Source: a virus
IMG/VR virus record: IMGVR_UViG_3300050033_000393
Coordinates: 1-25,785 of that record
DNA: 25,785 bases
Direction: 5' to 3' (one strand)
The position numbers and the translations under genes were made by a program. Numbering within the stretch: position 1 is the stretch's first letter; every line of letters begins with the position of its first letter. Positions 1,297 to 25,785 of this stretch are shown here, piece after piece. The notes beneath the pieces are model-generated. The model had not been told where the DNA came from. It was given only the letters and a program-made list of their open reading frames with translations, and did not search any database.

Positions 1297-1830
1297 TTAT
1301 TCAAATGGCATGGTGTCCAATTTGACAGGTACACACTTCACAGTTTTGAAATATGGCTTGAATCCGCCAATACTTTTCTTAGTTGTGTCAGTTACATTAT
1401 TTGCATTCTCTACTTCGTAGAATCGGCTCTTTTCGCCGCTAAAGTTATATTCGATGATGTCGCCTCTGGATATGTCCGCATTTTTTTCTTCGAGTTCTTT
1501 CAGATACACGCCAAAGTTTAAAGCACCTGAGTCATCACGTGAAATTCCTCCTTTTCCATCGCCATAAAATACCTGTGTACCATCCTCAACACCAACCATA
1601 ACATTTAATCTGATTGGCGGAAAGAATTTTTTATCTATACTTTTTGCTTGACCGTATAAGCTATGCGTTTTTGTTTCGATAACGTTTATTTTATAAAATG
1701 TTACGAATTGAACATTGTCTGTTTTCAAGTATTGTCTACCATAAAATATATCGAGATCAAATGAACTGTCCGTCATGAACAATCCATATCTTTCGTCTTC
1801 CAAATTAATTCTATTTGCTTTCTTTTTCAT
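1297..1830 (-). CDS. Probable neck / head-completion protein (T4 gp14-like)
   Basis: A 177-aa protein if started at the ATG at 1830. The frame is open further upstream to 1908, but that extension would cover the plus-strand promoter at 1859-1889, and the AGTATTTATATT motif lies 17 nt before 1830, so I prefer the shorter form. Visible landmarks are LDIFYGRQYL near the N-terminus, LYGQAKSIDKKFFPP in the middle, and ISRGDIIEYNF followed by SRFYEV, IGGFKPYF and VKCVPVK near the end. The order (an FG/YG motif, then a GD-I-aromatic motif followed by a FE-[IV] strand) recalls T4 neck protein gp14 as I remember it. The gene sits on the same strand as, and downstream of, another likely neck gene (3742-4869), as gp13-gp14 do in T4. 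A generic virion protein is the alternative. The pair is split by an endonuclease cassette. Confidence 0.6.
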   Translation of the reverse strand: MKKKANRINLEDERYGLFMTDSSFDLDIFYGRQYLKTDNVQFVTFYKINVIETKTHSLYGQAKSIDKKFFPPIRLNVMVGVEDGTQVFYGDGKGGISRDDSGALNFGVYLKELEEKNADISRGDIIEYNFSGEKSRFYEVENANNVTDTTKKSIGGFKPYFKTVKCVPVKLDTMPFE

Positions 1831-1847: not shown

Positions 1848-1859
1848 AATATAAATACT
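1848..1859 (-). promoter_or_regulatory. AGTATTTATATT motif before the gp14-like gene
   Basis: Exact 12-mer on the minus strand, 17 nt before the start at 1830. It touches, back to back, the TTG of the plus-strand host-type promoter at 1859-1889. Confidence 0.45.
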
Positions 1860-1889
1860 TGTTTTTATAAATTAAAGTATTTATATTTG
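1859..1889 (+). promoter_or_regulatory. Bacteroidetes-type promoter for the RHH/endonuclease pair
   Basis: TTG at 1859-1861, 20-nt spacer, TATATTTG at 1882-1889. This matches the Bacteroidetes TTG...TAnnTTTG housekeeping consensus. Transcription would begin a few bases downstream, shortly before the ATG at 1912. The AGTATTTATATT 12-mer (1876-1887) overlaps the downstream element. Confidence 0.6.
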
Positions 1890-1911
1890 TAGTGTTAAAT
1901 AAATACATAAA

Positions 1912-2058
1912 ATGAAATATACTAAAGATAAAATAAAAACATTAAATATTAGATTAGAAGCCGATTTAAAAGAAAGATATTATAAATTTCTTAAGGATAA
2001 TGGCTTTTCAATGGCAAAAAGAATAAGAATATTGCTTGAAAATGATATGAAAAAATGA
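1912..2058 (+). CDS. Small ribbon-helix-helix DNA-binding protein
   Basis: A 48-aa gene, short enough to be missed by usual length cut-offs. It reads MKYTKDKIKTLNIRLEADLK and ends in MAKRIRILLENDMKK. The pattern of a short alternating beta strand (KTLNIRL), a first helix (EADLKERYYKFLKDN), a turn (GFS) and a second helix (MAKRIRILLENDM) is that of Arc/MetJ/CopG-type RHH regulators, which bind DNA as dimers through the strand. Its stop codon overlaps the start of the next gene in ATGA (2055-2058), so the two are translationally coupled. A host-type promoter ends 22 nt upstream. Likely roles, both inferred, are autorepression of the cassette or assistance to the endonuclease. No independent evidence for a target operator was found. 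Confidence 0.75.
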   Translation: MKYTKDKIKTLNIRLEADLKERYYKFLKDNGFSMAKRIRILLENDMKK

Positions 2059-3749
2059 ACGATAGTAAAATTGATTTTTTTACAGCCGAAAATAAAAATG
2101 GTTTAAGGTCTTCTGAAAAATACTTATCTGAGAATTATAACAATATATTTAATTCCGTTATTAATTGGAGTGCTGCATATGTAAATATGCAATTTAAAGA
2201 AAGAATATATCTTTATATGAATCATATGTTATATAAGCCTAAGTGCTTAAAATGCGGTAATGATATCAAATTTACGGGATCATTTATAAAAGGATATCGA
2301 ACATACTGCTCACGAAATTGTGCATGTATGTCCGATAATAAAAAAATGAAAACAATCGAAACAAATATATCACGATATGGCGTAGGCTGCGTATTTAAAT
2401 CAGATACAATTATAGAAAAAATTAAAAATACAAATATAGAATTATATGGCGTTGAAAATGTTTTCTCATCGAAAGCAATAAAAAGTAAAATAAAACAAAC
2501 AGTTTTAGAGACATATGGCAATGATCAATATTCAAAAACAGCCGATTTTAAAAAAAAATATGAAAAAGCCATTAAAGCTAAATATGGCGTAAGTCATTTT
2601 TCAAAAACAAATACTTTTAAAAATGACTTTAAAGCAACAATGACTAATCGATATGGTGTTGATAATCCATTAAAAAGTGCCGAAATAAAAGAAAAAATGC
2701 GTGTAAACTGTGACAAGGCTTTCAAAGCTAGATTAAAAACAAAAGGGTATGATGTTATTAAAATTGATAATTATCTTATAACTGTTATGCATCCAGATGG
2801 ACATATATTTACAGAAGATAGAAGATTTCTTATTAATAGATTTAATACAAATGTTGAGCTTTCAACAGAACTGTTACCAAAGTATCATTCCAATCCAGAA
2901 TCCGATTTAATTTCTTTTATCGCAAGCCTTACCAATAATTTGCTTTTAAACAAAAGGTCTATTTCCGATGGTAAAGAAATAGACATTTATATACCCGATA
3001 AAAAGGTGGGCATTGAATTTGATGGACTATATTGGCATTCAAACATATATAAGGATAAGCAATATCATAAAAATAAGACAGAATTATGCAAAAATGACGG
3101 CATACAATTATTACATGTGTTTGAAGATGAATGGGCAAATAAAAAAGAAATCGTTAAATCCATTATAAGGTCTAAATTGGGAATGATTGAAAATCGAATC
3201 TATGCTAGGAAATGTGTTGTTAAGGAACTTGAATCTAAAGACTGTTCTAAATTTTTAAATGAAAATCATTTACAAGGCAATGTGGGCAGTGCTGTTAAAT
3301 TGGGTTTATACTTTAATAATGAGCTTGTTTCTGTGATGACGTTCGGTAAAAAAAGGGTTTCTATGGGCGTTAAGGCGAGATTAGACGGCGAATTCGAAAT
3401 GATGAGGTTTGCCAATAAATTAAATACAACTGTTATTGGAGGCGCTGGTAAATTATTAAAGCATTTTATAAAAACGAATAATCCTGTATCTATATTGAGT
3501 TTTGCTGATAGACGTTATTCCAACGGCGGATTATATAAACAATTGGGCTTTAAATTTATTGGTAACACAGAACCAAATTATTTTTATTTTAAAAAAAATG
3601 AACTTATTCGAGAATATCGTTTTAAATATAGAAAAGATATTCTTGTTAAGAACGGCTTTGACCCATCCTTAACGGAATTTGAAATCATGGCAAAAAGAGG
3701 ATTTCTTCAAATATATGATTGCGGCTCAATGAAATTCGAACTTAAATAG
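2055..3749 (+). CDS. Free-standing homing endonuclease: zinc finger, YGV repeats, Vsr/EDxHD-like nuclease, GNAT-like C-terminal domain
   Basis: 564 aa. Residues about 63-90 form a zinc finger (CLKCG...YCSRNC). About 100-215 hold five tandem repeats around a tyrosine-glycine core (SRYGV, ELYGV, ETYGN, AKYGV, NRYGV), each followed by a lysine-rich helix; such repeats are common in phage Hef-like endonucleases and probably bind DNA. About 280-375 is a Vsr/EDxHD-type nuclease: ESDLISFI, KEIDIYIPDKKVGIEFDGLYWHS and a terminal HVFEDEW. The last 190 residues (from IYARKCVVKEL) form a domain with acyltransferase-like features (LGLYFNNELVSVMTFG, MMRFANKL, LSFADRRYSNGGLYKQLGF) often fused to these nucleases. 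Translation is coupled to the RHH gene. The 3' end overlaps the convergent neck gene by 8 nt. The same C-terminal domain survives in the remnant at 10614-11426. Confidence 0.88.
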   Translation: MNDSKIDFFTAENKNGLRSSEKYLSENYNNIFNSVINWSAAYVNMQFKERIYLYMNHMLYKPKCLKCGNDIKFTGSFIKGYRTYCSRNCACMSDNKKMKTIETNISRYGVGCVFKSDTIIEKIKNTNIELYGVENVFSSKAIKSKIKQTVLETYGNDQYSKTADFKKKYEKAIKAKYGVSHFSKTNTFKNDFKATMTNRYGVDNPLKSAEIKEKMRVNCDKAFKARLKTKGYDVIKIDNYLITVMHPDGHIFTEDRRFLINRFNTNVELSTELLPKYHSNPESDLISFIASLTNNLLLNKRSISDGKEIDIYIPDKKVGIEFDGLYWHSNIYKDKQYHKNKTELCKNDGIQLLHVFEDEWANKKEIVKSIIRSKLGMIENRIYARKCVVKELESKDCSKFLNENHLQGNVGSAVKLGLYFNNELVSVMTFGKKRVSMGVKARLDGEFEMMRFANKLNTTVIGGAGKLLKHFIKTNNPVSILSFADRRYSNGGLYKQLGFKFIGNTEPNYFYFKKNELIREYRFKYRKDILVKNGFDPSLTEFEIMAKRGFLQIYDCGSMKFELK

Positions 3750-4869
3750 CAATTATTGGGAACATAATGGGCTGAAAACCTCTTTCCTTGTTAATATTCT
3801 CTGCAATTGTCGCTCTTTCCAAAGTTAAATTAGACTGAGACATTTTTTCCAATGCGTCGATAATGACTTTTTCGGTATCCTCTTTTAATTTAGTGCCTTC
3901 GTCAAGTAGATGGCGATAATCCATTACCAAAGCTTTTTCAGCAACCCCTAGTTCGCCCGTAAAGAAGCCCCTAATGCCTCCGACAACCATTTTCACCTTA
4001 GCAATTAAAAGATTTCTTATTTGCTGTTTCGCAACGTCATTTAAATTATCCCATTGTAAAACTTCTGTTGGAGCATCCGATGGCAATCTAACAATATCAG
4101 AATTCTTTTTTAAACATTTTTTCACATCTTTTGATGACGAAAACATTGTATCATAATACCAATACCATACTTTTCTACCAGCATAATGTTTGCCCCAGCC
4201 ATAAGCAATTTCATGGCGGCCCCCAGGAATTGGATACAAATGAAGCATCTTTTCGCCTGTTTCTAAGCCAGTTATGCGATAAGTTAAAATAGATTGAAGT
4301 ACCCTTTGTTTCATGCTTCTGTCCTGTGCTGATAATAATGCAGAATATGTGGGCTGAACATACATAGATGGACGCCCAAGGTATGACCAGCCAGCCATGC
4401 CTGGCGTGAACGTGTTAAGTGCCATAGGATCAATGAGTCCAGCATCTACTGACGGCGGAGTTTCCCATAAAACCTCATTAACTTCTCTACCAGCAGGTAT
4501 TAAATAATGCTGTGTATTTTCGGTAGTTAATATGAAGTCACGTTTTAATTCCCAACCAGCACCAGCAGGTGCATTTGTGCCTAATCCAACTTGCTTTGAA
4601 TATGCATATGTAAATGCTTTCATATAGTTGTTAGACTTAGTCGTAAAAGCCGAAAGGAAGTCACTACCAGTCTTATCCATGCCCTCTAAATTGATCCAGT
4701 TCTGATGTATTAACCATGAGTTAACGAACGATGAATAGTCCTCTATAACCATTTCAAGATATGACATCATCATATCATCTTTGATTTCAAAAGGTCTTAA
4801 TGGATAGCCCATTTCATGTTTTACATGAAGAAACAATTTATTTTTATTTACGCTTGTTATTATCGCCAT
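3742..4869 (-). CDS. Virion structural protein, probable neck protein (T4 gp13-like position)
   Basis: 375 aa, no signal peptide or membrane segment. Recognisable stretches are ELKRDFILTTENTQHYLIPA, then GREVNEVLWETPPSVDAG, a Gly/Tyr/Trp-rich middle (GMAGWSYLGRPSMY, AYGWGKHYAGRKVWYWYYD) and a helical C-terminal part (IAKVKMVVGGIRGFFTGE, MDYRHLLDEGTKLKEDTEKV). I know this type of sequence as a conserved structural protein of large myoviruses but cannot name it with certainty. Its place upstream of the gp14-like gene on the same strand, and its size, suggest a gp13 or head-tail connector role. It starts at ATG 4869, 21 nt after an AGTATTTATATT motif. Its 3' end overlaps the convergent endonuclease gene by 8 nt with no terminator between them. 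Confidence 0.6.
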   Translation of the reverse strand: MAIITSVNKNKLFLHVKHEMGYPLRPFEIKDDMMMSYLEMVIEDYSSFVNSWLIHQNWINLEGMDKTGSDFLSAFTTKSNNYMKAFTYAYSKQVGLGTNAPAGAGWELKRDFILTTENTQHYLIPAGREVNEVLWETPPSVDAGLIDPMALNTFTPGMAGWSYLGRPSMYVQPTYSALLSAQDRSMKQRVLQSILTYRITGLETGEKMLHLYPIPGGRHEIAYGWGKHYAGRKVWYWYYDTMFSSSKDVKKCLKKNSDIVRLPSDAPTEVLQWDNLNDVAKQQIRNLLIAKVKMVVGGIRGFFTGELGVAEKALVMDYRHLLDEGTKLKEDTEKVIIDALEKMSQSNLTLERATIAENINKERGFQPIMFPIIAI

Positions 4870-4915: not shown

Positions 4916-5392
4916 ATGATTAAGATTGAATACGACATTAAATTGAATGAGGAAACTGGCATGCCTTATATTGATTTACCCGAAGGTTACGTCATGAAGT
5001 CTGAGGATAAATTCTTTGCTTTTGAAATTACTAGATACATTTTAAATGGTATGATCACAAGTAAAAATTATAGCGGAACACCAGTTCTCCAAAAGATATT
5101 AGAAGATAATTTTGCCTTTATTAGTGATGTTGCAGCAGAAGTCGGCTCACTCATATTGGGACAAATGAAAACAAACGCTGAAATATGTCGAGCATTTGAT
5201 ATGTTTTATAATTTTAAGGTTGATACCTTCAAAGATTTATCAGGAAGAGATAAATTTCAATATGATGATAAGCTTTTTCTACTTGATGAAGGTCTACTTG
5301 TTTATGTAGTTGACGAGAAAGAAGTTTATGAGTATAAAGTAGACGGAGTTACGAACCTTTCATCTTGGGTAAGAAAGGACGGGGCGTTTTAA
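4916..5392 (+). CDS. Hypothetical phage protein, first gene of the helicase operon
   Basis: 158 aa, not assigned to a family. Visible features: an N-terminal strand-rich segment with GMPYIDLPEGYVMKSED, a central helical part (FFAFEITRYILNG, LQKILEDNFAFISDVAAEVG) and a strand-rich C-terminus (LLDEGLLVYVVDEKEVYEYK). There are no membrane segments and no obvious catalytic motif. It stops in TAATG (5390-5394), overlapping the helicase start, so the two are probably made together. Promoter position and operon suggest an early gene, perhaps helping DNA replication or repair, but nothing in the protein itself shows this. Confidence 0.7.
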   Translation: MIKIEYDIKLNEETGMPYIDLPEGYVMKSEDKFFAFEITRYILNGMITSKNYSGTPVLQKILEDNFAFISDVAAEVGSLILGQMKTNAEICRAFDMFYNFKVDTFKDLSGRDKFQYDDKLFLLDEGLLVYVVDEKEVYEYKVDGVTNLSSWVRKDGAF

Positions 5393-8300
5393 TGAAAATG
5401 ATTCCAACAGCCGAACAAAAAACAATCTTTAAATTCGTTAAGGATCGACCTGAAAATATTTTAATAGAAGCATTCGCTGGTTCAGGTAAATGTCTCGGAT
5501 TTAACACGCCAATTTTAATGTATGATGGATCAATTAAAAATGTTCAAGATATTGTAATAGGCGATCAATTAATGGGTGATGATTCGTTGCCAAAAGACGT
5601 GTTAAATACGAATATAGGCAGCGGCGAATTATACAAAATAATTCCAATGAATGGCGATGAATGGATATGCAATGATGTTCATGTTTTGACAATTCATAAT
5701 GAATTGTCAAAAAAGCTAATGGATATACCATTAAATGAACTTAAATATCCTAAATACCCAAATGGTAATTATAGGTACGCAAGACTTCAAAGAATTGGTG
5801 TCGAATTTTCAGAAAAAAAAATGGAAATCGATCCATATTTAATGGGCTTATGGCTTGGTGACGGTACAAAAGAAAATGGATCACCATGTATAACCGTACA
5901 TGCATCTGAGACTCCGATATTAAATTACCTTAAAAATATAAAATACGTAAATATTACGCCAAAATTTAATGAATATGTAAAAAATATTTATACTGTAAGT
6001 CTCACAACGCCAAATTTTAATGGACGCAAAGTAAACAATGTACTAAGAGATGAATTTAAAAAATGTCTTAATAATGATGGAAGCTTTTCTATACCAGATA
6101 ATTATTTACGTAATTCTAAAATAAATAGACTAAAATTGTTGGCAGGCATAATAGATACCGATGGCAACAATGCTGGCAAATATTATGAGATTATAACAAA
6201 ATATAAATCATTTGCTGATGATCTCTTATATCTGTCACGTAGTTTAGGCTTTGCAGCTTATTGCAAGCCTAAATCAGGAACGATAAAGCCCTTAAATTTT
6301 ACTGGCAATTATTATAGGATTAATATAAGCGGATCATTTGAAGAATTACCATGTTTATTAGAAAGAAAAATATGCGAACCTAGATTACAAATAAAGTCAG
6401 TTTTAAGAACTGGTTTTAAAACTGAAGCCATAGGTATTGGAAATTATTATGGCTTTACATTAAATGGCAATGGCAGATTTTTATTGGGCGATTTTACTAT
6501 TACACACAATACCACAACAATTGTTGAGGCGGTAAAATTATTACCATCATCATTAGCTATAACATTTTTAGCATTCAATAAACATATTAAAGAAGAGCTT
6601 TCTTTAAAGCTTCCAGAGTATGTTAAATGTTATACTACTTATGGATTAGGCTATGCTGCGATTATGCGTAAATATAAAAATAAGATCAAATTTGACGAAT
6701 TAAAAATCGATAAAATAATTCAGAAAAAAGCCAAATCATGGTCTTTATCGGACAATATTAAAAATGAGTCCGATAAATATATTTATTTCGGACAAATAAA
6801 ACGATTAGTCGACGCTTGTCGCCTAACTTTAACACTAAAGCCAGAATATGTCCCATATATATCGGACAGATATGACATAGGCTTAAATAAACCAGAGGAT
6901 ATGAAACGAGTTTTAAAAGTATTAGACGCAGCTACAAATGACCGCTTAACATTCGATTATACGGATATGGTGTATTTGCCAGCTGTTGATAATTCAATAT
7001 GGATGTTTCCACAGGATGTTGTTTTTGTTGACGAATGTTTACCTAAAGATTCATATATTTCAACTGAAATGGGTAAATTGAAAATATATACATTATTTAA
7101 TAAATTTAATAAGAACGAAACTCTCCCAATGGTAACAACATTTAATGAGGAGAGTAAAATATTTGAATATAAGAAAATTAAAAATATTTGGTGTAACGGT
7201 ATAAAGAATGTTCATTATGTTATGTTGGGTGGAAAAAGGAAGTTAAAATCAACCGTAAATCATAGATTTTTAACTGACAATGGCTGGAAAAGATTAGACG
7301 AACTTAAAATCGGTGATGCTATAATTAGTAATTATAATGACCAGCCATATCATGAGTTTCTAAATGAATCGCAGAAAGAAATTTTTATAGGATCTATAAT
7401 AGGCGATGGTCATTTGGACGCCCTATCAGAACACATAAATAGAATACGAGTAATACACGGCGCCAATCAACTTGAGTATATTAAATGGAAAGCATCGTTT
7501 TTTGATTTGGCATTGACACACATATTGGAAAACGGATTTTCAAAAAAATTAGCCCATACTTTCGGAACTCAGGGATTTTTTATAAATACTGATAAGGAAA
7601 GGGCGATTAATGAATTAACAGCTAAATCGTTGGCAATTGCATGGATGGACGATGCTAATATAAATAAGAATAATTATTTATCGTCACGATTATACTCATA
7701 TGCAAATGATTTAAATCTTATTACTAAATTATCCGATGCCATATTAAATAAGTTTGGTATAGCATCAAAAATAAAAAATAGTAATAGTAGCTCAACAGGC
7801 ATCCTATATTATTTTCTAACCTTTAATAAAGAAAATACAATAAAAATATCAAAATTAATATCGCCATTCATTCACAAATCTATGGATTATAAAATAATGC
7901 CTGAACATAGATTGAATATATCTGAAAATAATTGGCGTAAATCTGAAAAATCGAATATCGGATGTTGCGTGGTAACTAAAGAACACACTTTTTATAAAAG
8001 TGAAAATGTTTATGACATATCTGTTGAAGATAATCATAATTTTATAATTACATCGAAATCGATGGGAATAAAAAAATCTGTTGCTGGCGGTTATGGAATT
8101 GTCGCGCACAATTGCCAAGACATGAATAGGTGCCAAATTCGAATAATTGAAAAAATTCTAAAAAAAGATAAAGTAACTGGTAAGACGGTTGGGAGACTTA
8201 TTGCCGTTGGAGATTATTTTCAAGGTATTTATGGCTTCAATTTTTCCGATGATAAATCATTTCAATGGTTTAGAGACTATAAAAATACGTCGATATTGCC

Positions 8301-8985
8301 GTTATCATATTCTTTCAGATGTGCTAAAAATATAATATTAAAAGCAAATGAGATTGTTCCAGATATAAAAGCACTGGAAACTGCTCCAGAAGGCACAGTG
8401 AGAGAGGGTTCAATTCTAAAAGAAGCTGAGAGTGGCGATTTTGTTTTGTGTAGAACGACAGCACCTTTAATCAGATTATTTTTTGAATTACTCGTTCAGC
8501 ATAAAAAGGCAGTCATAAAAGGAAAGGATATCGGCGATGGTTTAATCGAAATGATCAAAGATCATAAGACAATTGATAAAATGATATATTATTGGGAAAC
8601 GAAACTCTTTAATATGAAAAGAGATTTGGCTGCCACGCAAATGCTAAATCCTGAAAAACATACTGGATATGTCGCTTTAGAGGATAAAGTATTAACATTA
8701 ACATTTCTCGGCAGACTATCTCAAGATATAATCGATTTAAAGGCTAAAATATCAATGATTTTTAGCGATGATAATGGCGACGGAATCATACTATCAACGA
8801 TACATAAGGCTAAGGGTAGCGAAGCTAATAGAGTATTTATTGCTCGTCCAGATTTAATGCCATTGCCTTGCTCAAGAGGCTGGCAAATGGCACAGGAAAA
8901 AAACTTGGCATATGTCGCAATTACTAGAGCTAAGCATGAATTAATTTATGATAATGAGTGGACTGACGAAAAAATGGAGGATTAA
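5392..8985 (+). CDS. UvrD-like superfamily 1 DNA helicase interrupted by two inteins
   Basis: The precursor is 1197 aa; removal of two inteins leaves about 498 aa. Helicase motifs in order: Q-motif (TAEQKTIF, 5404 on), Walker A GSGK/T split by intein 1, the motif-II strand and DE/CQD split by intein 2, motif III GDYFQGIYGF (about 8209-8238), motif IV-like LPLSYSFR, motif V STIHKAKGSEANRVFI (about 8795), and motif VI LAYVAITRAKHELIY near the C-terminus. This is the UvrD/Rep/PcrA layout; in a T4-like phage it could take the place of Dda, but I would not equate them. I place the start at ATG 5392 (TAATG overlap with the previous gene); the TTG at 5365 would add nine residues that overlap that gene. 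ATP hydrolysis needs both splice events, because both nucleotide-binding motifs are cut. Three small genes follow with 3-nt spacing or ATGA overlaps. Confidence 0.9.
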   Translation: MKMIPTAEQKTIFKFVKDRPENILIEAFAGSGKCLGFNTPILMYDGSIKNVQDIVIGDQLMGDDSLPKDVLNTNIGSGELYKIIPMNGDEWICNDVHVLTIHNELSKKLMDIPLNELKYPKYPNGNYRYARLQRIGVEFSEKKMEIDPYLMGLWLGDGTKENGSPCITVHASETPILNYLKNIKYVNITPKFNEYVKNIYTVSLTTPNFNGRKVNNVLRDEFKKCLNNDGSFSIPDNYLRNSKINRLKLLAGIIDTDGNNAGKYYEIITKYKSFADDLLYLSRSLGFAAYCKPKSGTIKPLNFTGNYYRINISGSFEELPCLLERKICEPRLQIKSVLRTGFKTEAIGIGNYYGFTLNGNGRFLLGDFTITHNTTTIVEAVKLLPSSLAITFLAFNKHIKEELSLKLPEYVKCYTTYGLGYAAIMRKYKNKIKFDELKIDKIIQKKAKSWSLSDNIKNESDKYIYFGQIKRLVDACRLTLTLKPEYVPYISDRYDIGLNKPEDMKRVLKVLDAATNDRLTFDYTDMVYLPAVDNSIWMFPQDVVFVDECLPKDSYISTEMGKLKIYTLFNKFNKNETLPMVTTFNEESKIFEYKKIKNIWCNGIKNVHYVMLGGKRKLKSTVNHRFLTDNGWKRLDELKIGDAIISNYNDQPYHEFLNESQKEIFIGSIIGDGHLDALSEHINRIRVIHGANQLEYIKWKASFFDLALTHILENGFSKKLAHTFGTQGFFINTDKERAINELTAKSLAIAWMDDANINKNNYLSSRLYSYANDLNLITKLSDAILNKFGIASKIKNSNSSSTGILYYFLTFNKENTIKISKLISPFIHKSMDYKIMPEHRLNISENNWRKSEKSNIGCCVVTKEHTFYKSENVYDISVEDNHNFIITSKSMGIKKSVAGGYGIVAHNCQDMNRCQIRIIEKILKKDKVTGKTVGRLIAVGDYFQGIYGFNFSDDKSFQWFRDYKNTSILPLSYSFRCAKNIILKANEIVPDIKALETAPEGTVREGSILKEAESGDFVLCRTTAPLIRLFFELLVQHKKAVIKGKDIGDGLIEMIKDHKTIDKMIYYWETKLFNMKRDLAATQMLNPEKHTGYVALEDKVLTLTFLGRLSQDIIDLKAKISMIFSDDNGDGIILSTIHKAKGSEANRVFIARPDLMPLPCSRGWQMAQEKNLAYVAITRAKHELIYDNEWTDEKMED
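5491..6510 (+). mobile_element. Intein 1 of the helicase, in the Walker A motif, with LAGLIDADG endonuclease
   Basis: 340 aa. It starts with Cys after AFAGSGK and ends in THN before Thr-Thr-Thr, so the extein joins as GSGK-TTT. Block A is visible at the start (CLGFNTPILMYDGSIKNV). The B-block region has NDVH rather than TxxH. Two LAGLIDADG motifs, LMGLWLGDG and LLAGIIDTDG, mark the homing endonuclease. The C-terminal splice block reads FLLGDFTITHN with Thr as +1 nucleophile. The P-loop lysine/threonine junction is a classic intein site in phage and archaeal ATPases. Confidence 0.93.
7036..8112 (+). mobile_element. Intein 2 of the helicase, in the Walker B (DECQD) motif, with LAGLIDADG endonuclease
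   Basis: 359 aa. It begins with Cys in DE|CLPKDSYIS and ends in YGIVAHN before CQDMNRC, restoring DE-CQD. The B block is STVNHRFLT and the F block is VYDISVEDNHNFIITS, a canonical class-1 form with penultimate His. LAGLIDADG motifs appear as FIGSIIGDGHL and SLAIAWMDDANI; the second is diverged, though its Asp-Asp remains. No frame break is visible, so both splicing and cutting may be active. Confidence 0.93.
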
Positions 8986-9949: not shown

Positions 9950-10000
9950 AAATTATGAATGGCTTTAATACGACCATTTAAAGCCATTCATAATTTTTTT
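9948..10000. terminator. Long bidirectional terminator between convergent operons
   Basis: Perfect 21-bp inverted repeat: arms 9948-9968 and 9978-9998 around a 9-nt loop. One arm begins with five A and the other ends with a T run, so it can end transcripts from both sides. The plus-strand operon stops at 9949. The minus-strand GIY-YIG frame ends inside it, with part of its C-terminus (GFKW...) coded by one arm. Confidence 0.85.
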
Positions 10001-10672
10001 ATCTTTACACCATCGAGATATTGTTGATTGATTAACATTTTCATTCTTTGAAGCAATCGCTGTTGATTCGAATATGTTTATTATAATATCATTTAAATTT
10101 CTTTTATAAACCCTTTTACATAATACATCCTTCTGTTTATCGGATATACCATTTTTTAATTTAGTTTGACTTATTTTATCCTTTGTAATTTGATCTCTTT
10201 CTTTACCGAGCCAGAATTTTGGAGAATTTATGCTCAATTCTGTTTTTTCATCGTCTGTCTTTGCTTTGCCATATTTTTTTGCGTTATCAGACCCAGCAAT
10301 AGCTATTCGATTATTAATCCATTCGGTAGATTGCTTGATTCCCTGATGTGATCTCGACATTTTTTCAAGAGTTTCTGTAGATGGAATTGAATTACATCCG
10401 CCAGATTCTATATTATATCCAAAATTTCGATCATTTGATTTATATTTCGAAATGTAATAGATTTCTTTTTCATTTAGCTCGGTTATATTTGTGGCACTAT
10501 CAATCATGGTGAATTCAAATGCATCCCAGCCATATTTATTAAATGAGTTTAATAAATATTGATTATAAAATACACCTTTATTATATGCACTTTTATACTC
10601 CCATATTCTTTTATTAAGTGTTCGAGTTGTTTGACCTATATATATAACCAAAAATAACCATATTATTCTCAT
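9965..10672 (-). CDS. GIY-YIG homing endonuclease, probably degenerate at its N-terminus
   Basis: 235 aa as an open frame. From about residue 10 it matches a GIY-YIG enzyme: VIYIGQTTRTLNKRIWEY (YIG and the catalytic Arg), NSFNKYGWDAFEF, a Glu in LNEKEIYYISKY and YNIESGG. NUMOD3-like helices follow (LEKMSRSHQGIKQS, KDKISQTKLKNG), and the end is a NUMOD1-like segment (INIFESTAIASKNENV ... NGFKWSY). The first residues (MRIIWLFLV) are not those of a normal GIY strand. The expected start, MVIFGYIY, lies in the overlapping frame at 10661, and about ten residues between the GIY and YIG motifs are missing. The gene therefore looks like a fragment with a deletion and frameshift. It lies directly downstream of another endonuclease remnant and ends in the terminator stem. 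Confidence 0.75.
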   Translation of the reverse strand: MRIIWLFLVIYIGQTTRTLNKRIWEYKSAYNKGVFYNQYLLNSFNKYGWDAFEFTMIDSATNITELNEKEIYYISKYKSNDRNFGYNIESGGCNSIPSTETLEKMSRSHQGIKQSTEWINNRIAIAGSDNAKKYGKAKTDDEKTELSINSPKFWLGKERDQITKDKISQTKLKNGISDKQKDVLCKRVYKRNLNDIIINIFESTAIASKNENVNQSTISRWCKDKKIMNGFKWSY

Positions 10673-11426
10673 TCAATCTGATAACGTATCGTAATTTACC
10701 ACAGTTCCATACCCTTTTAGAATCATCCCTTATTATACTTTTTTGTATGTCGCTAATTTCATTGTTTCTAAAAAATTTAGTACCGTAAGTAAATTTATGA
10801 TATAAAATATTTGAACTTTTTAATAAAATCTTGTAATCAGGTTGAATAACTTTATTCAGATAAAAATTATTTGAATCATATATATTTTTATATTTATTTG
10901 TATAATTTAGATCGGCGTATGATGTTATTTTTAATGGCTTATAATCGTTTATGAATTGTTTTAAAATCTTAGAAAAAACTCCAACGACAATATGCCCCAA
11001 ACTTATCGAAAATCTTGACAAATCAAATTCATTATCATTTTGTTTGCCGTTCATTTTTGATTTATTATCGAAAGTCATGACAGCAATCAGTTCATCATTT
11101 TTATAAGCACCGTAAAAAATTTGAGACTTATCAGTTCCTTGTATGTGATTTACATTTAAAAAATTATTTTTTATAGTATTTTCAATGTGTCGTATTTTAC
11201 ATTCTCTAGCGTTAATTCTTATTTGATCTCTAAAATTCAACTTATTTATCTTATCTTTTATGATGTTTTTATGATGTTTTAAATCATGATAATTATAAAT
11301 TATACAGTTTTCATAAGACGTTAAATAATTTTCTTTAATTTTTTTTAAATCCCCTCTGTTCATCGTGATCATATCATCGATGCTTAGGAATAGGATTATA
11401 GTTTTATTATAAACCAGATTCTTCAT
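10614..11426 (-). CDS. Truncated homing endonuclease remnant: GNAT-like C-terminal domain without a complete nuclease
   Basis: 270 aa. From about residue 70 it follows the C-terminal domain of the endonuclease at 2055-3749 segment by segment: INARECKIRHIE against IYARKCVVKELE, FLNVNHIQG against FLNENHLQG, AVMTFDNKSKM against SVMTFGKKRVSM, LKITSYADL against VSILSFADR, and VWNCGKLRY against IYDCGSMKF. Only a vestige of the preceding nuclease remains (YENCIIYNYHDLKHHKNIIKDKI, compare LLHVFEDEW and the helix after it). The zinc finger, YGV repeats and most of the Vsr-like core are absent. The end of the frame reads into the GIY-YIG start (MVIFGYIY) before a stop. It overlaps the upstream gene by 20 nt. 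It may be a pseudogene, or a short protein retaining only the accessory domain. Confidence 0.65.
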   Translation of the reverse strand: MKNLVYNKTIILFLSIDDMITMNRGDLKKIKENYLTSYENCIIYNYHDLKHHKNIIKDKINKLNFRDQIRINARECKIRHIENTIKNNFLNVNHIQGTDKSQIFYGAYKNDELIAVMTFDNKSKMNGKQNDNEFDLSRFSISLGHIVVGVFSKILKQFINDYKPLKITSYADLNYTNKYKNIYDSNNFYLNKVIQPDYKILLKSSNILYHKFTYGTKFFRNNEISDIQKSIIRDDSKRVWNCGKLRYVIRLNENNMVIFGYIYRSNNSNT

Positions 11427-14971: not shown

Positions 14972-16750
14972 TTATAGTAAAAATATATCGAGAGCACTTT
15001 GCATTTTATCTTCATTCTCGCTTAGTTTTTTTGTTGTTACAATAGGCTTTTCACCATTATCTGGAAACAAAAAGGCCCCAGGTGTACTAGGTGAACTAAC
15101 TAAGTCAAAGCTAATTAACTCAAAATCATCTTGAACATAATTCTCGCCTCTTATTTCTTTCAACGTTCCAACGCCTCTTGATGAAATACCTAATTTCATT
15201 TTATTCATGACGTATAAAAGTATCTTATCACCTATAACAGATACAACGCCAGATCTTATGAAACCTGGGCTGACGATCAATTTCAGCTTACCATATAATG
15301 TATTTTCGTTATCATCGGTGCCCCACCACATCTTTGTGATCATGTGTGATATGTTTTGTAACGATATAACCGAACTATCTGGGTGATCACAGTTTAATGT
15401 CCATAAAGCCTTACCATTTCTCATGACAAATATTGTCTCATTGGGCACTTGAACACATACTACTTTGCCGTCATAATGATATTTATTCACCTTAATACTA
15501 CGTCTATCCAAATAGATATGTTCGGTTTCGGATAGGTTTAAATTAAATAAAGCCTTTGAGTTTATTCTTTTTATAACTCGCTCAGTCTTTGTTATAATTT
15601 CTTCACCGTTAATTATCGAGTATTTATCGTCGATTATAACTCTATCATTTCTTTTTGTATCGATGGTAATATTGCCAGACCTTCCAGATTTATATAAAAT
15701 TTCATTAAGATCGTATATTAATTTCTTTGAGGTCGAAAATACTGAATTTTTTCTTTGTTGCTGGCCTTTCAAACTTGAATATTTAACATTTCTGCCGTCG
15801 CCCAATTGAAACCAGTCAACAAGTATTTTTAACAAATCAGCTGATCCATTTTTTAATTCTGTTGAAATGTATTTTTTTGACGCTTTACCAAGCGGTTTCA
15901 AATACTCAAAAAGGGCATTATTCTCAATTACAAAATCAACAGTGCCATTTTTTCTGGTACGTTTATTATAATATAAGCCAGTTTTATTCAGTAAGTTTTC
16001 TATTTTTGTAATAACCACTTCCTTTTTTTGAGTTATCTGTATATTTCTATCTTTAATAAGAACACATCCTTCTGATAAATATATTCCCATAAAAGCATAA
16101 AATAGTTCGGGTTTGATTTTTATCTTTCCAAACTCAAAGTCAGATAAGCTATCATTATGCCAATTAATTTTTTTTATTATCTTATATTTGCCATTAAAAT
16201 ATTTATTTTCGGATATATTTTCGAAAAGCTCTGAAGCTCTTACCTCAACTAAATTATCATTTCTATCAGCGATTAAAAATCTATGATAAGGCGTAACTTT
16301 TATATCAATATTAGTAGATTTAATATGATACATATCGCCAGAATGATCCTCATATATTTTTTTTGATATAATTTGATATTCGGCTTTATTTGTCATCCTG
16401 TTCAATGTTAAAATATTTTCAGTTTCTGAAATATCTTTCATCACCTTCCAGCCTTCCTTTGTCAAAATTTTCGTATCAGGCGAAAAACACTCGCCCATAG
16501 CCTGATTGTTATCCACCAACTTTTGGTATTCTAAAATCTGTGGTAATAACACTTCCTTGGAATATATTCTACCGTTTTTATTTTTAACACCCCATTTTTG
16601 TAAAATACAGGTGATCATCACGGGTTCATTTTCTTTAAATTGAAAACTTTCGGCAATAATCTCTTTATTTAACTCAGCTGATATGTAGCCTGAGTCGGAT
16701 TCAATTAGAATACCGAATCCACACTCACCTTTTTTTAATATATTGCTCAT
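14972..16750 (-). CDS. 21: Prohead maturation protease (T4 gp21-like) interrupted by an intein
   Basis: The precursor is 592 aa; without the 366-aa intein it is 226 aa, close to T4 gp21 (212 aa). N-extein: ITCILQKWGVKNKNGRIYSK, then NNQAMGE. C-extein: CDHPDSSVISLQNISHMITK, then MWWG, GKLKLIVSPGFIRSG, KLGISSRGVGTLKE and LISFDLVSSPSTPGAF. The His of DHP and the Ser of GISSRG are the expected catalytic residues of this serine-protease family (herpesvirus assemblin-like fold). The enzyme sits in the prohead and cuts capsid, scaffold and itself at (I/L)xE sites. The intein is inserted two residues before the catalytic His, so the precursor should be inactive before splicing. The start at 16750 is 15 nt after a promoter-like motif. 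Confidence 0.93.
   Translation of the reverse strand: MSNILKKGECGFGILIESDSGYISAELNKEIIAESFQFKENEPVMITCILQKWGVKNKNGRIYSKEVLLPQILEYQKLVDNNQAMGECFSPDTKILTKEGWKVMKDISETENILTLNRMTNKAEYQIISKKIYEDHSGDMYHIKSTNIDIKVTPYHRFLIADRNDNLVEVRASELFENISENKYFNGKYKIIKKINWHNDSLSDFEFGKIKIKPELFYAFMGIYLSEGCVLIKDRNIQITQKKEVVITKIENLLNKTGLYYNKRTRKNGTVDFVIENNALFEYLKPLGKASKKYISTELKNGSADLLKILVDWFQLGDGRNVKYSSLKGQQQRKNSVFSTSKKLIYDLNEILYKSGRSGNITIDTKRNDRVIIDDKYSIINGEEIITKTERVIKRINSKALFNLNLSETEHIYLDRRSIKVNKYHYDGKVVCVQVPNETIFVMRNGKALWTLNCDHPDSSVISLQNISHMITKMWWGTDDNENTLYGKLKLIVSPGFIRSGVVSVIGDKILLYVMNKMKLGISSRGVGTLKEIRGENYVQDDFELISFDLVSSPSTPGAFLFPDNGEKPIVTTKKLSENEDKMQSALDIFLL
15392..16489 (-). mobile_element. Intein in the prohead protease with LAGLIDADG endonuclease
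   Basis: 366 aa, Cys1 (CFSPDTKILTKEGWKVM) to Asn366, then Cys+1 of CDHP. B block is VTPYHRFLI. LAGLIDADG motifs are FMGIYLSEGCVL and LVDWFQLGDG. The end reads KVVCVQVPNETIFVMRNGK, then ALWTLN. It lacks the usual penultimate His (Leu instead), has Cys at F-block position 4 and Thr two before the final Asn; the latter two are residues of the class-3 WCT signature, but Cys1 is present. Confidence 0.92.
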
Positions 16751-22766: not shown

Positions 22767-22961
22767 TTATAACTCCTCCCTTTTCTCTGGTATAAAAATG
22801 TCGCAATCAGGGATATTGAGCGTATCAATATCCCTGATTTCCTTTTTAAACTTAATTACAATTGACCTTATATATTCCTCGATTTCGTCTTCGGGAATGT
22901 TCCCGACGTTAATAGTAAAAACTCTTTTTTCGGAATGATCGGGCATATTAATATTTTCCAT
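22767..22961 (-). CDS. Mini-portal: 64-aa protein copying a segment of the adjacent portal protein
   Basis: 64 aa from ATG 22961, or 59 aa from the ATG at 22946, which stands one base after the portal stop codon. The core KRVFTINVGNIPEDEIEEYI...IKFKK parallels the portal's KKVFKIDVGNIDDDDIEEYM...TKFKK, about 20 identical residues over some 30. The end (DCDIFIPEKREE) parallels DEDYFLPVRN. About 11 residues between these blocks are lacking, and a 15-bp inverted repeat codes for that stretch. The portal part concerned corresponds to the conserved FYIDVGNL segment of gp20 proteins. It is probably a partial duplication of the portal gene. Whether it is made and binds portal assemblies, or is a relic, cannot be told from sequence; divergence without stop codons slightly favours a used gene. 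Confidence 0.6.
   Translation of the reverse strand: MENINMPDHSEKRVFTINVGNIPEDEIEEYIRSIVIKFKKEIRDIDTLNIPDCDIFIPEKREEL
22805..22839. repeat. Perfect 15-bp inverted repeat inside the mini-portal gene
   Basis: AATCAGGGATATTGA (22805-22819), loop GCGTA, exact complement at 22825-22839. On the minus strand the sequence after it (GCGACATTTTTATACC) has only a displaced T run. It could weaken or stop transcription leaving the portal gene. Confidence 0.75.
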
Positions 22962-25785
22962 CTGGCAGTTCTATATTTTTTGTAAATTCACTAACATCAT
23001 TTAAGTCACCGTTGATAAGTTCATCGATTTCATTAATCATATTAATAGCATTTTTATTTGATGCATTTAATTCATTTTCGTAAATAACCTGTGGATTTGA
23101 TTCGCTCTTCAACTTATGTCCGTAAACAAGTTTTTCAACTCTTTCGTCAAATTCTGTTTCAGACATTAGTTTTCTTCTACCAACGCTTTCAGCTTCTATT
23201 GGAGGTAGCTCGGATGGCGATTGATTTGGCAAACCCTCAGCTGGTGGTGACATACTGCCTTCGCCGCCTCCCATATCATTCATTCCGATTGGAGGCATAC
23301 CACCACCAGCAGGTGCTCCCACAGCAGGTGCGCCGCCTTGTCCAGTGTTTCCACTTGCGACTGCCGTCATAGCTGTTGGGTCGCCATATCTTTTATCAAT
23401 ATCAGCAAATAGTCCAGATTTTTTTATCGTGACAGGCGCATCAGCAAATTCTTGCATAATAACCTTTTCCATTTTCTGTTGTTTTAAGTCCTCAACGATT
23501 TCTCTATCGGTCATATTGAATAACATTCTCTTTGCGCCAGTGTGCGACATTGCAGCGATACCACCTTCTGATCTAGTAAGTTCGGTGTATGTTTGAGATT
23601 TTTCTCTCAACAATTCAGATTTCTGAATATCTAACTGAGTAGATGGATTTGTTAAAGTTAGCGTGAAGTCATTGAAGTCCTCAGTGCTATAACCTAAAAG
23701 ATATAAATGAATCATACCCATTTTGGTTAATTCCTGAACCATAGCCTGTTGAATTCTGTTTACTTTCTTAGCAAATCTAATATCAAACTGTGATACGTTT
23801 TTTCCACCGCCGCTAGCATCTTGAAATGATAGAAAAGGCTTTGGAATACCAAGACCCATGAACAAATTATCCCTTAAATATTCGATATCATGTATGTCAT
23901 TAAGGTTCGTAGCACCTGGCAATGTTTCGATACCTGTCTGAGTATTAGCGTTTCTGACAGGCAAGAAGTAATCTTCGTCGTTACCAAGAATGTTAAATCT
24001 GTAGTCAATTTGACCGTCGTTTGGAGATACTTGTTGAACTTTTTTAAATTTGGTTGCAACTTTATACATATATTCTTCAATATCATCATCATCAATATTA
24101 CCAACGTCAATTTTAAAGACCTTTTTCTCGCCTGCTCTTATAATTCTATATGTGAGCATGGCATCCTCTGCCATTATAAGCTGTCTAAAAACCCTTCTTA
24201 CTTTATTTAGTAGTGATGAACCATATGGAATGTATTTGTCGTCTCCTAGCAGTCTAAAGTGAGCTATTTCAAACGCATTGAATTCGTCGCCAGTCATTCT
24301 TTCCTTGAATAGAATACTAGACTTGCCATTGACGATTCTTTCGGTTCTTTCAATTTCAAAATTCACCATTTGCTTGATAGCAGTGATACCCTTTTTTCTT
24401 TCGCCTAACATAAGTACGAAGTTATCACCATATTTACAATTCGAAACGAACACGCCATTTCTTTGATATTCGCCATTTTCGTTTCTACCGCAAATCGGAA
24501 AATTGTGTCGATCTTGTTCATTATTCGGCCCAACGACTTCCATACAATAAACATCCTGTGTTTCAATAAGTCTTTCAACTGATAAGACTTTATGATTAAT
24601 TATTACTTCTGCCTTATGCTTGCTAAAGCTAGATATACTGTTTGCACGTTTGAAATTTGACTCATTTATCACATCTGGCTTAATACTATAAACAAAATCG
24701 TAATATGATAGGTTTGTTGCTCTGTTAATAAGTTTATACACAGTTGTCGAACTCAATGATTTGTATAGGTCTTTTCTAAAATGATTATTAGTCGCTTTAA
24801 ATAGCTCCATAAAGGCATTATCATTTTTTAATTTCTCACCCAAATTTTTAGCACTTATATAATTACTACCTTTTAAAAAATTTATTATATAAGCTAAACA
24901 TTCGTTATCAATTTTTAATGTCATTCGATCCTTAACGTTATTTTTAAAGTTGGTATCAGACCATAATTTTAACATGCCTCTTTTGCGAGTGATATTATGT
25001 GCATCATGTAAAGAACTATTATTATAATCATTAAAACACTGAGGATAAATTCCAGACATATCCTCAGACATTTTATCTCTTCTTTTTTTCGAACGTAAAT
25101 ACTTATTAATACCTTGCATTCTCTTTTCAACTACGTCAGGTCTTTTTAAAATCTTTTCAGATATGTTATTATGATATGATATATGATCACTTGTTGTCAT
25201 TCTTAACAAATTGGTTGGGTAGTTGTCTAATTTGTTGAAGTTTTTGTGATGTGTGATGTACTTATCGTTAGAAATTTGTTCAATATCCAAATTTCTAACA
25301 CACTCATGAGATATAATTCTGTGTGTAAATTTATAATGATTTGTTGATGGATTATAAACCTTTTCATAGCCTTTAATGTGCACATTAGACTCATTAGTGA
25401 CTAATGTGTAAAATGGCATCAAACTATCCCCAGATAGTAATTCGTCAGCTCTTTTATATTTGCCATTACGAAGCATGAATTCGTGATCAACAGTAGTTTC
25501 AACAAAATTGCCGTCATCAAGATGAATTTTTAATATTTCGCTATCTTTTCTCGTTAAATCACACCAAACTATTTTACCTGTTACTATATTCTTGGTTTCA
25601 TCCTGTACAGCATACGTCCAAATATCGTTTGACGGATTATCCTTCAATCTATCTGATATTTCTTTAATGGTAATTGTTTCGCCATTTAGTAATGGAACCA
25701 TTGTATTATATTTGACAGGGGTATTTCTTGTCCAGAATGGTAGGTTCGTGTTAACATTTAGAATATTGTAGTAGAAATCCTCTAA
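22948..25785 (-). CDS. 20: Portal protein (T4 gp20-like) interrupted by an intein; 5' end outside the window
   Basis: The frame runs without a stop to the right edge, 945 residues visible. N-extein at the edge: DFYYNILNVNTNLPFWTRN. After the intein: CKYGDNFVLMLGERKKG, IPYGSSLLNKVRRVFRQLIM, AEDAMLTYRIIRAGEKKVFK, IDVGNIDDDDIEEY, DEDYFLPVRNANTQTGIETL, PGATNLNDIHDIEYLRDNL and GIPKPFL. This is the gp20 order (RAPERRVFYIDVGNLP-like segment, LPRREG-like segment, TLPGGxNL). The C-terminal 120 residues are a Gly/Pro/Met-rich linker and a helical tail. The portal forms the dodecameric DNA channel at one head vertex, binding terminase and neck. The ATG at 25701 lies within the intein and is not the gene start. 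The mini-portal gene follows with overlapping codons. Confidence 0.92.
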   Translation of the reverse strand, partial: LEDFYYNILNVNTNLPFWTRNTPVKYNTMVPLLNGETITIKEISDRLKDNPSNDIWTYAVQDETKNIVTGKIVWCDLTRKDSEILKIHLDDGNFVETTVDHEFMLRNGKYKRADELLSGDSLMPFYTLVTNESNVHIKGYEKVYNPSTNHYKFTHRIISHECVRNLDIEQISNDKYITHHKNFNKLDNYPTNLLRMTTSDHISYHNNISEKILKRPDVVEKRMQGINKYLRSKKRRDKMSEDMSGIYPQCFNDYNNSSLHDAHNITRKRGMLKLWSDTNFKNNVKDRMTLKIDNECLAYIINFLKGSNYISAKNLGEKLKNDNAFMELFKATNNHFRKDLYKSLSSTTVYKLINRATNLSYYDFVYSIKPDVINESNFKRANSISSFSKHKAEVIINHKVLSVERLIETQDVYCMEVVGPNNEQDRHNFPICGRNENGEYQRNGVFVSNCKYGDNFVLMLGERKKGITAIKQMVNFEIERTERIVNGKSSILFKERMTGDEFNAFEIAHFRLLGDDKYIPYGSSLLNKVRRVFRQLIMAEDAMLTYRIIRAGEKKVFKIDVGNIDDDDIEEYMYKVATKFKKVQQVSPNDGQIDYRFNILGNDEDYFLPVRNANTQTGIETLPGATNLNDIHDIEYLRDNLFMGLGIPKPFLSFQDASGGGKNVSQFDIRFAKKVNRIQQAMVQELTKMGMIHLYLLGYSTEDFNDFTLTLTNPSTQLDIQKSELLREKSQTYTELTRSEGGIAAMSHTGAKRMLFNMTDREIVEDLKQQKMEKVIMQEFADAPVTIKKSGLFADIDKRYGDPTAMTAVASGNTGQGGAPAVGAPAGGGMPPIGMNDMGGGEGSMSPPAEGLPNQSPSELPPIEAESVGRRKLMSETEFDERVEKLVYGHKLKSESNPQVIYENELNASNKNAINMINEIDELINGDLNDVSEFTKNIELPDGKY
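24439..25722 (-). mobile_element. Intein in the portal protein with HNH endonuclease and unusual splice residues
   Basis: About 428 aa. The C-terminal junction is clear: GVFVSN|CKYGDN. The N-terminal junction is uncertain, after WTRN (Thr at 25722) or after WTRNT (Pro at 25719); no Cys or Ser stands there. Block B is TTVDHEFMLRNG. An HNH endonuclease is recognisable around 25200-25265 (YITHHKNFNKLDNYPTNLLR, SDHISYHNN), unlike the LAGLIDADG of the other three. Block F is DVYCMEVVGPNNEQDRHNF with Cys at position 4; penultimate His is replaced by Ser. Confidence 0.85.

Follow-up and report, generated by a model that had tools for sequence, protein, structure and literature searches.

A small, predicted ribbon-helix-helix gene precedes selfish nuclease genes in a group of large phages and may serve in their control

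How free-standing homing endonucleases are controlled is, for most of them, still an open question, and a review of T4 finds translational control not obvious for the remaining free-standing endonucleases (PMC2988022). The locus described here raises this question in a particular form: an endonuclease gene lies directly behind, and overlaps, a gene for a 48-residue protein with a probable ribbon-helix-helix (RHH) fold. What might the small protein do for the nuclease, or for the site at which the two genes reside? The locus lies in the IMG/VR virus record IMGVR_UViG_3300050033_000393, whose 25,785 bases were analysed as a whole and are called the window. Judged by its capsid protein sequence, the window phage is a distant T4-like phage. 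An INPHARED nucleotide search with the window gave no match; relatives are present among other IMG/VR contigs, and 57 of these were collected through neck13, one of the two genes that flank the pair. (The names neck13 and neck14 are labels of convenience for 1297-1830 and 3742-4869; relatives are cited by their L numbers.) The features of the locus are as follows.

1297-1830, minus strand: flanking conserved phage gene neck13, 92% identical in L016-L019
1850-1859, minus strand: late-promoter-like motif facing neck13, paired with the same motif at 1876-1885
1859-1889, plus strand: putative host-type promoter (Bacteroidetes-like, by consensus), TTG-N20-TATATTTG, with the same spacing in relatives
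1876-1885, plus strand: phage late-promoter-like motif AGTATTTATA, about 27-36 nt before the RHH start
1912-2058, plus strand: RHH gene, 48 aa (open reading frame, homologues, profile matches, purifying selection)
2055-2058, plus strand: ATGA stop/start overlap joining the RHH and nuclease genes (direct sequence)
2055-3749, plus strand: Hef-family EDxHD/Vsr-like homing endonuclease gene, 564 aa (PHROG, Pfam-type and PDB profile matches)
3742-4869, minus strand: flanking conserved phage gene neck14, 97% identical in L016-L019

A two-gene cassette at a variable site

The 48-aa reading frame is coding, since homologues occur in the same position (L032, L043, L046, L050-L061, near copies of L050 included, and L073; 50-68% identity) and because pairwise dN/dS values of about 0.1-0.4 indicate purifying selection. 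Family members are 48-54 aa long and consist of an RHH core, at about residues 8-47, with no extra domain. A preliminary description of the locus had proposed the RHH fold, with a profile search as a check. Such searches do return RHH families, and the proposal holds up: single-sequence matches are weak, yet they are consistent over 13 members. The best are ParG (1.8e-5), DUF6364 (6.7e-5), and DUF6290 (6.9e-4); RelB is matched by five of the 13 (best 0.0014) and PHROG 582 (Arc-like) by nine (best 6e-5). The window protein alone scores weakly (RelB 0.02 in Pfam, RelB_DinJ 0.0011 in NCBIfam). Against the PDB, the family profile matches 2kel at 0.003, followed by weak matches to DinJ and RelB. 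An AF2 monomer built from 25 alignment rows has an extended N-terminus and helices at residues 17-30 and 34-47 (pLDDT 73); an earlier model from six rows, a single long helix, was uninformative. Foldseek with the later model gives eight PDB matches, mostly RHH antitoxins or regulators, none of the eight significant. Thus, an RHH fold of the MetJ/Arc superfamily is well supported, though not proven. The 48-aa protein, searched singly in INPHARED and IMG/VR, found no relatives, and a search of GTDB contigs with A2 likewise found none; the relatives came only through alignment and neighbour-gene routes.

The 564-aa protein matches PHROG 3339 (homing endonuclease) at 7e-134. It contains DUF7487 repeats at residues 99-219 (E=2e-25), a nuclease domain at about 305-374, and a Mom-like C-terminal domain at 388-523 (E=1e-7); it also matches MTES_1575 (6e-4) and is 31% identical to the Hef protein of U5. 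The earlier description of this enzyme as Vsr-like is upheld by matches of the nuclease to the EDxHD structure 3r3p (profile A1, E=0.0011) and to vsr (E=0.013). On such profile evidence the product of 2055-3749 is a Hef-family EDxHD/Vsr-like homing endonuclease, with presumed homing activity. Elsewhere in the window, at 9965-11426 on the minus strand, an overlap joins a GIY-YIG endonuclease gene to a Hef C-terminal (Mom-like) region that has no nuclease domain; the two are 92-96% conserved in L016-L019.

The ATGA overlap that had been reported is directly visible at 2055-2058 on the plus strand. In relatives the paired genes overlap by 8-14 nt (L043, L046, L050) or about 20 nt (L073). At the edges of the pair, the stop region of neck14 overlaps the endonuclease stop, and the upstream flanking gene is better fitted by a start at 1830 than at 1908. 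In many relatives, L016-L020 among them, neck13 and neck14 lie 1 nt apart and thus form an empty site; this neck site is occupied in the window, L043, L046, and L050, a presence/absence polymorphism at a fixed position. At the right junction the window has kept TCGCTATTTAATATG, identical to the empty L019. The left junction ends with GCTATTTAA, from which it follows that the insert has part of the neck14 end on either side. The suggestion that the pair is a mobile two-gene cassette is supported by the 1-nt spacing of its flanking genes in L016-L020. Its placement between two neck genes stands as an insertion between two minus-strand genes, whereas a neck function for these genes finds no support in Pfam or PHROGs. 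The best reading of 1912-2058 and 2055-3749 is that of two translationally coupled genes that make up a site-specific homing cassette.

The other side of neck13 is also occupied in the window, by a GIY-YIG/I-TevI-type endonuclease gene (319-1296) whose relatives, 45-48% identical, lie directly beside neck13 in L028, L029, L031, and L063. With endonucleases on both sides, neck13 appears to be flanked by two homing hot spots. The cassettes of L028, L039, and L042 carry additional opposite-strand sequence that is partly gene-like.

Recurrence of the pair and exchange of its nuclease

A profile of the RHH family, run over 44 whole records, finds 17 places at E up to 0.1, and 16 of these lie below 1e-7 (the exception is L096, E=0.025). 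The genes occupy three genomic sites: the neck site, a position beside a tail-region gene (L094, L098, L097), and a position behind a helicase-like gene (L095, L099-L101). At all of these places a nuclease gene then follows, except in L097/L105. There the RHH gene is intact and the nuclease is a stub of about 20 codons, which implies that the RHH gene outlived its nuclease. Further scans added pairs in L102, L104, L114, L116, L154, and L157. By a hand count over 50 records, near-duplicates included, the DUF7487 nuclease genes number about 49, and about 16 of these have an RHH gene in front. In other phages (L107, L112, L158-L161), related RHH genes occur with no nuclease. Thus, as far as gene order and sequence matches tell, an RHH gene often precedes selfish nuclease genes in a group of large phages. 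The preliminary description also asked whether the small gene precedes related endonucleases in other phages, its absence there being a ground for refutation. This is so in the IMG/VR phages, and the idea is not refuted; it is not so in the Hef family of the named phages examined, where a scan of 19 Hef-type loci of other phages with the RHH profile found none with an RHH gene in front, nor for the same-site endonucleases of L028, L031, L039, and L042, which have no RHH.

Comparison of the copies separates the history of the RHH gene from that of the nuclease. Distinct neck-site copies of the RHH protein are 48-68% identical, whatever the nuclease; between sites the identity is 25-55%. The neck-site nucleases behind it are of Hef type (window, L043, L046), of 382 aa (L050), or of 490 aa (L073). 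For example, the RHH proteins of the window and L050 are 66% identical, and their nucleases 27% over the N-terminal part. The L050 nuclease is instead close to same-site nucleases that lack an RHH partner (66% identical to that of L031, 61% to L042, and 57% to L028). Similarly, a single RHH type (53-72%) is found at the helicase site before nucleases of two types, DUF7487 (L108, L114, L154) and CapR/DUF723 (L116, L157). By this identity matrix, which compares short proteins, RHH sequences group by insertion site and not by nuclease. The earlier pairing with a Vsr-like partner is correct for the enzyme in the window but too narrow, since the RHH gene keeps its site while the nuclease types change. 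The RHH gene is regarded as an accessory because the same nuclease types also occur without it, and the 66% identity between the L050 nuclease and that of RHH-less L031 indicates that it is not needed for the nuclease as such. The idea that the RHH protein replaces a lost DNA-binding domain of the nuclease was discarded, given that these two nucleases are also of nearly the same length.

The control region and the role of the small protein

The preliminary description gave the pair its own TTG-N20 promoter, and this is found as described, with TTG at 1859-1861 and TATATTTG at 1882-1889 separated by a 20-nt spacer; the chance of such a promoter in the shuffled 111-nt upstream region is about 0.003. 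The exact N20 promoter is conserved in five other neck-site RHH copies (L032, L043, L046, L050, L059), in the form TTG-N20-TAnnTTTG, and related elements are present in four of five tail-site cassettes. Within three mismatches, the full 31-nt promoter occurs only in these cassettes and before one nuclease-like gene in three related records.

In the window this host-type promoter overlaps the motif AGTATTTATA. Of the occurrences of AGTATTTATA in 431 kb of relatives, about 54 of 60 lie 22-38 nt before a start codon, a position from which the motif is read as a phage late promoter; it is likely to be the late-promoter motif of this phage group (L016-L072 and the window). In the same group it is often merged with the host-type TATATTTG element. 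Each of the 17 RHH genes tested has GTATTTA at a distance of 28-36 nt on its upstream side. The composite promoter also serves nuclease genes that have no RHH, and helicase-site cassettes contain the late motif and lack both the host-type promoter and the palindrome found in the window. This palindrome, an inverted repeat at 1848-1887, is made of the motif at 1850-1859 (minus strand) and that at 1876-1885 (plus strand). It was rejected as evidence of an RHH operator because a late motif found throughout these phages explains both arms. The conserved promoter spacer is too weak a candidate operator to support a claim, and a search of the control regions for a cassette-specific operator found none. 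A T4-style RNA hairpin that masks the start codon was likewise set aside: the palindrome arms do pair in read-through RNA of the window (-13.6 kcal/mol, z -1.7), but this hairpin stops about 25 nt short of the ATG, transcripts from the cassette's own promoter lack it (z +0.5), and it is unsupported in L043, L046, and L050. At the neck site of L028, L031, and L042, which have no RHH, a common leader, GGAAA..GGTTG...GCGAGTATTTATA, precedes the start of the 382-aa type nuclease; this leader may be an RNA or operator element.

The favoured role for the RHH protein, with a probability of about 0.5, is repression or timing of the nuclease operon in cis. The endonuclease would cut cassette-free genomes near the neck13/neck14 junction, and repair of the cut would then copy the cassette in. 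The small protein would form an Arc-like ribbon-helix-helix dimer that binds the control region of the cassette, where host-type and phage late promoters overlap. By repressing or timing the operon, the bound dimer would keep the nuclease at a low level. In this scheme we infer the DNA binding, the operator, the repression, and the homing activity of the cassette. A function on DNA in cis fits a gene that follows site and promoter rather than enzyme, and the families that the RHH protein matches are repressors or operon autoregulators. The cis-repressor is favoured because the protein is too short for a classical antitoxin, because its partner is exchangeable, and because there is a precedent: I-TevI of T4 represses its own late promoter (PMC2988022). 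Several findings stand against it. The main ones are the lack of a cassette-specific operator in the search described above and the RHH gene that is kept without its nuclease in L097/L105, where a pure nuclease repressor would not be needed. Endonucleases that have no RHH carry the same composite promoter, helicase-site cassettes have the late motif without the host-type promoter or the palindrome, and it is by consensus that the promoter is read as early and host-type.

The persistence of the RHH gene in L097/L105, together with the grouping of RHH sequences by site and the presence of RHH-like genes before TnpB, would also be expected of a factor that acts in targeting or shielding, that is, one that binds the homing site or its flank and guides the nuclease or protects the copy already in place, with repression not its main task. 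This is the strongest rival. It is nonetheless unlikely, given that same-type nucleases occupy the same site without an RHH (L028, L031, L039, L042), that the nucleases retain their own DUF7487 or CapR/zinc-ribbon modules, and that TnpB enzymes are RNA-guided. Alternatively, the RHH protein may also regulate the neighbouring structural gene, insulating or re-timing flanking late genes that the insertion has split and thereby sparing the phage some of the cost. In neck-site and tail-site cassettes a divergent late motif for the flanking gene does share the control region, at about 60-90 nt from the start of the RHH gene; in empty sites the flanking genes adjoin each other, so that a shared arrangement is lost on insertion. 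However, helicase-site cassettes have no divergent promoter and the neck site also harbours RHH-less insertions that tolerate this situation, which makes this role quite unlikely.

The remaining possibilities concern the bond between the two genes. A common phage gene might have been caught in front of nucleases several times and have no role for them, a view to which the nuclease-less relatives in L107, L112, and L158-L161 lend some weight. Such hitch-hiking is improbable, since in the 44 whole records all convincing family members adjoin a nuclease or a nuclease stub, and tight spacing or overlap and purifying selection have been kept. The RHH protein could instead be an antitoxin that binds and inactivates the nuclease, in the manner of type II toxin-antitoxin modules. 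The analogy, drawn earlier, is apt for the layout, with a small RHH gene first, a harmful enzyme second, and an overlap between them, and the closest profile matches include RelB/DinJ (NCBIfam E=0.0011). It fails for the protein, which at about 48 residues barely exceeds the RHH core; with no extension for toxin binding, a classical antitoxin is hardly to be expected. As one RHH type is also paired with differing nuclease architectures and same-type nucleases exist without it, this reading is highly improbable.

TnpB and other known systems

In L106 (guided_TnpB, 6e-26) and L117 (TIGR01766, 5e-6, under the curated cut-off), the nuclease behind a divergent RHH gene is of TnpB type. Among relatives of the L106 TnpB, an RHH-like reading frame with a GTG start lies directly in front in L179, L180, L182, and L184. 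The record IMGVR_UViG_3300028364_000020 contains two TnpB copies, L179, preceded by the RHH-like frame, and L181, preceded by a serine recombinase; their DNA is 94% identical over a stretch that begins at the start codon and extends about 65 nt beyond the stop. TnpB-linked RHH proteins are distant from the main family (E about 1e-4 with the A3 profile, and 1e-7 to 1e-6 with A6, a profile that includes L106). In L181 the recombinase holds the place that the RHH-like gene has in L179, as in IS607-type TnpA-TnpB elements, from which the RHH-TnpB copies differ in having no transposase next to TnpB. It is tentatively proposed, as a plausible though far from secure generalisation, that a small phage RHH protein recurs as a module for the control or targeting of selfish nucleases from unrelated superfamilies (the EDxHD/Vsr, CapR-repeat, and TnpB types), staying with its site while nucleases are exchanged and, in TnpB cassettes, taking the former place of the transposase.

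Several known systems resemble parts of the cassette. Free-standing homing endonucleases of T4-like phages, Hef among them (U5 hef, the Hef-like enzyme of KARL-1, and that of Tenacibaculum phage PTm1), belong to the same nuclease family and, as here, are inserted between late structural genes; however, they have no RHH in front at the 19 loci of other phages, whereas the window cassette has one. With I-TevI the proposed likeness is that the homing system itself supplies a DNA-binding activity by which the late promoter of the nuclease is occluded (PMC2988022). I-TevI uses its own DNA-binding domain for this, whereas here a separate small protein would bind. The RelB/DinJ, ParD, and CopG type II toxin-antitoxin operons share gene order, overlap, and an RHH-type first gene with the cassette, which differs in having no toxin-binding tail, a mobile endonuclease as second gene, and an exchangeable partner. 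CvkR, a MerR-type repressor of CRISPR-associated transposons, is described as likewise a small regulator on a mobile element (PMC9938897); its fold and element differ from those of the RHH cassette. A search of the open PMC literature for a homing endonuclease with an RHH or Arc-like protein, and for TnpB with an RHH, found no such pair reported. What is new here is the presence of one RHH family before nucleases of several types at three genomic sites. That the small gene keeps to its site while the enzyme behind it changes suggests a dedicated control switch of selfish nucleases. If so, this separable regulator, tied to the site, would add a new part to the selfish-nuclease toolkit, and RHH proteins may link classical homing endonucleases and TnpB in one control scheme.

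The window also contains three large reading frames that appear to include inteins (5365-8985, 14972-16750, and 22948-25785). One is helicase-like, another is a prohead protease that matches Intein_splicing and LAGLIDADG, and the third was judged by eye.
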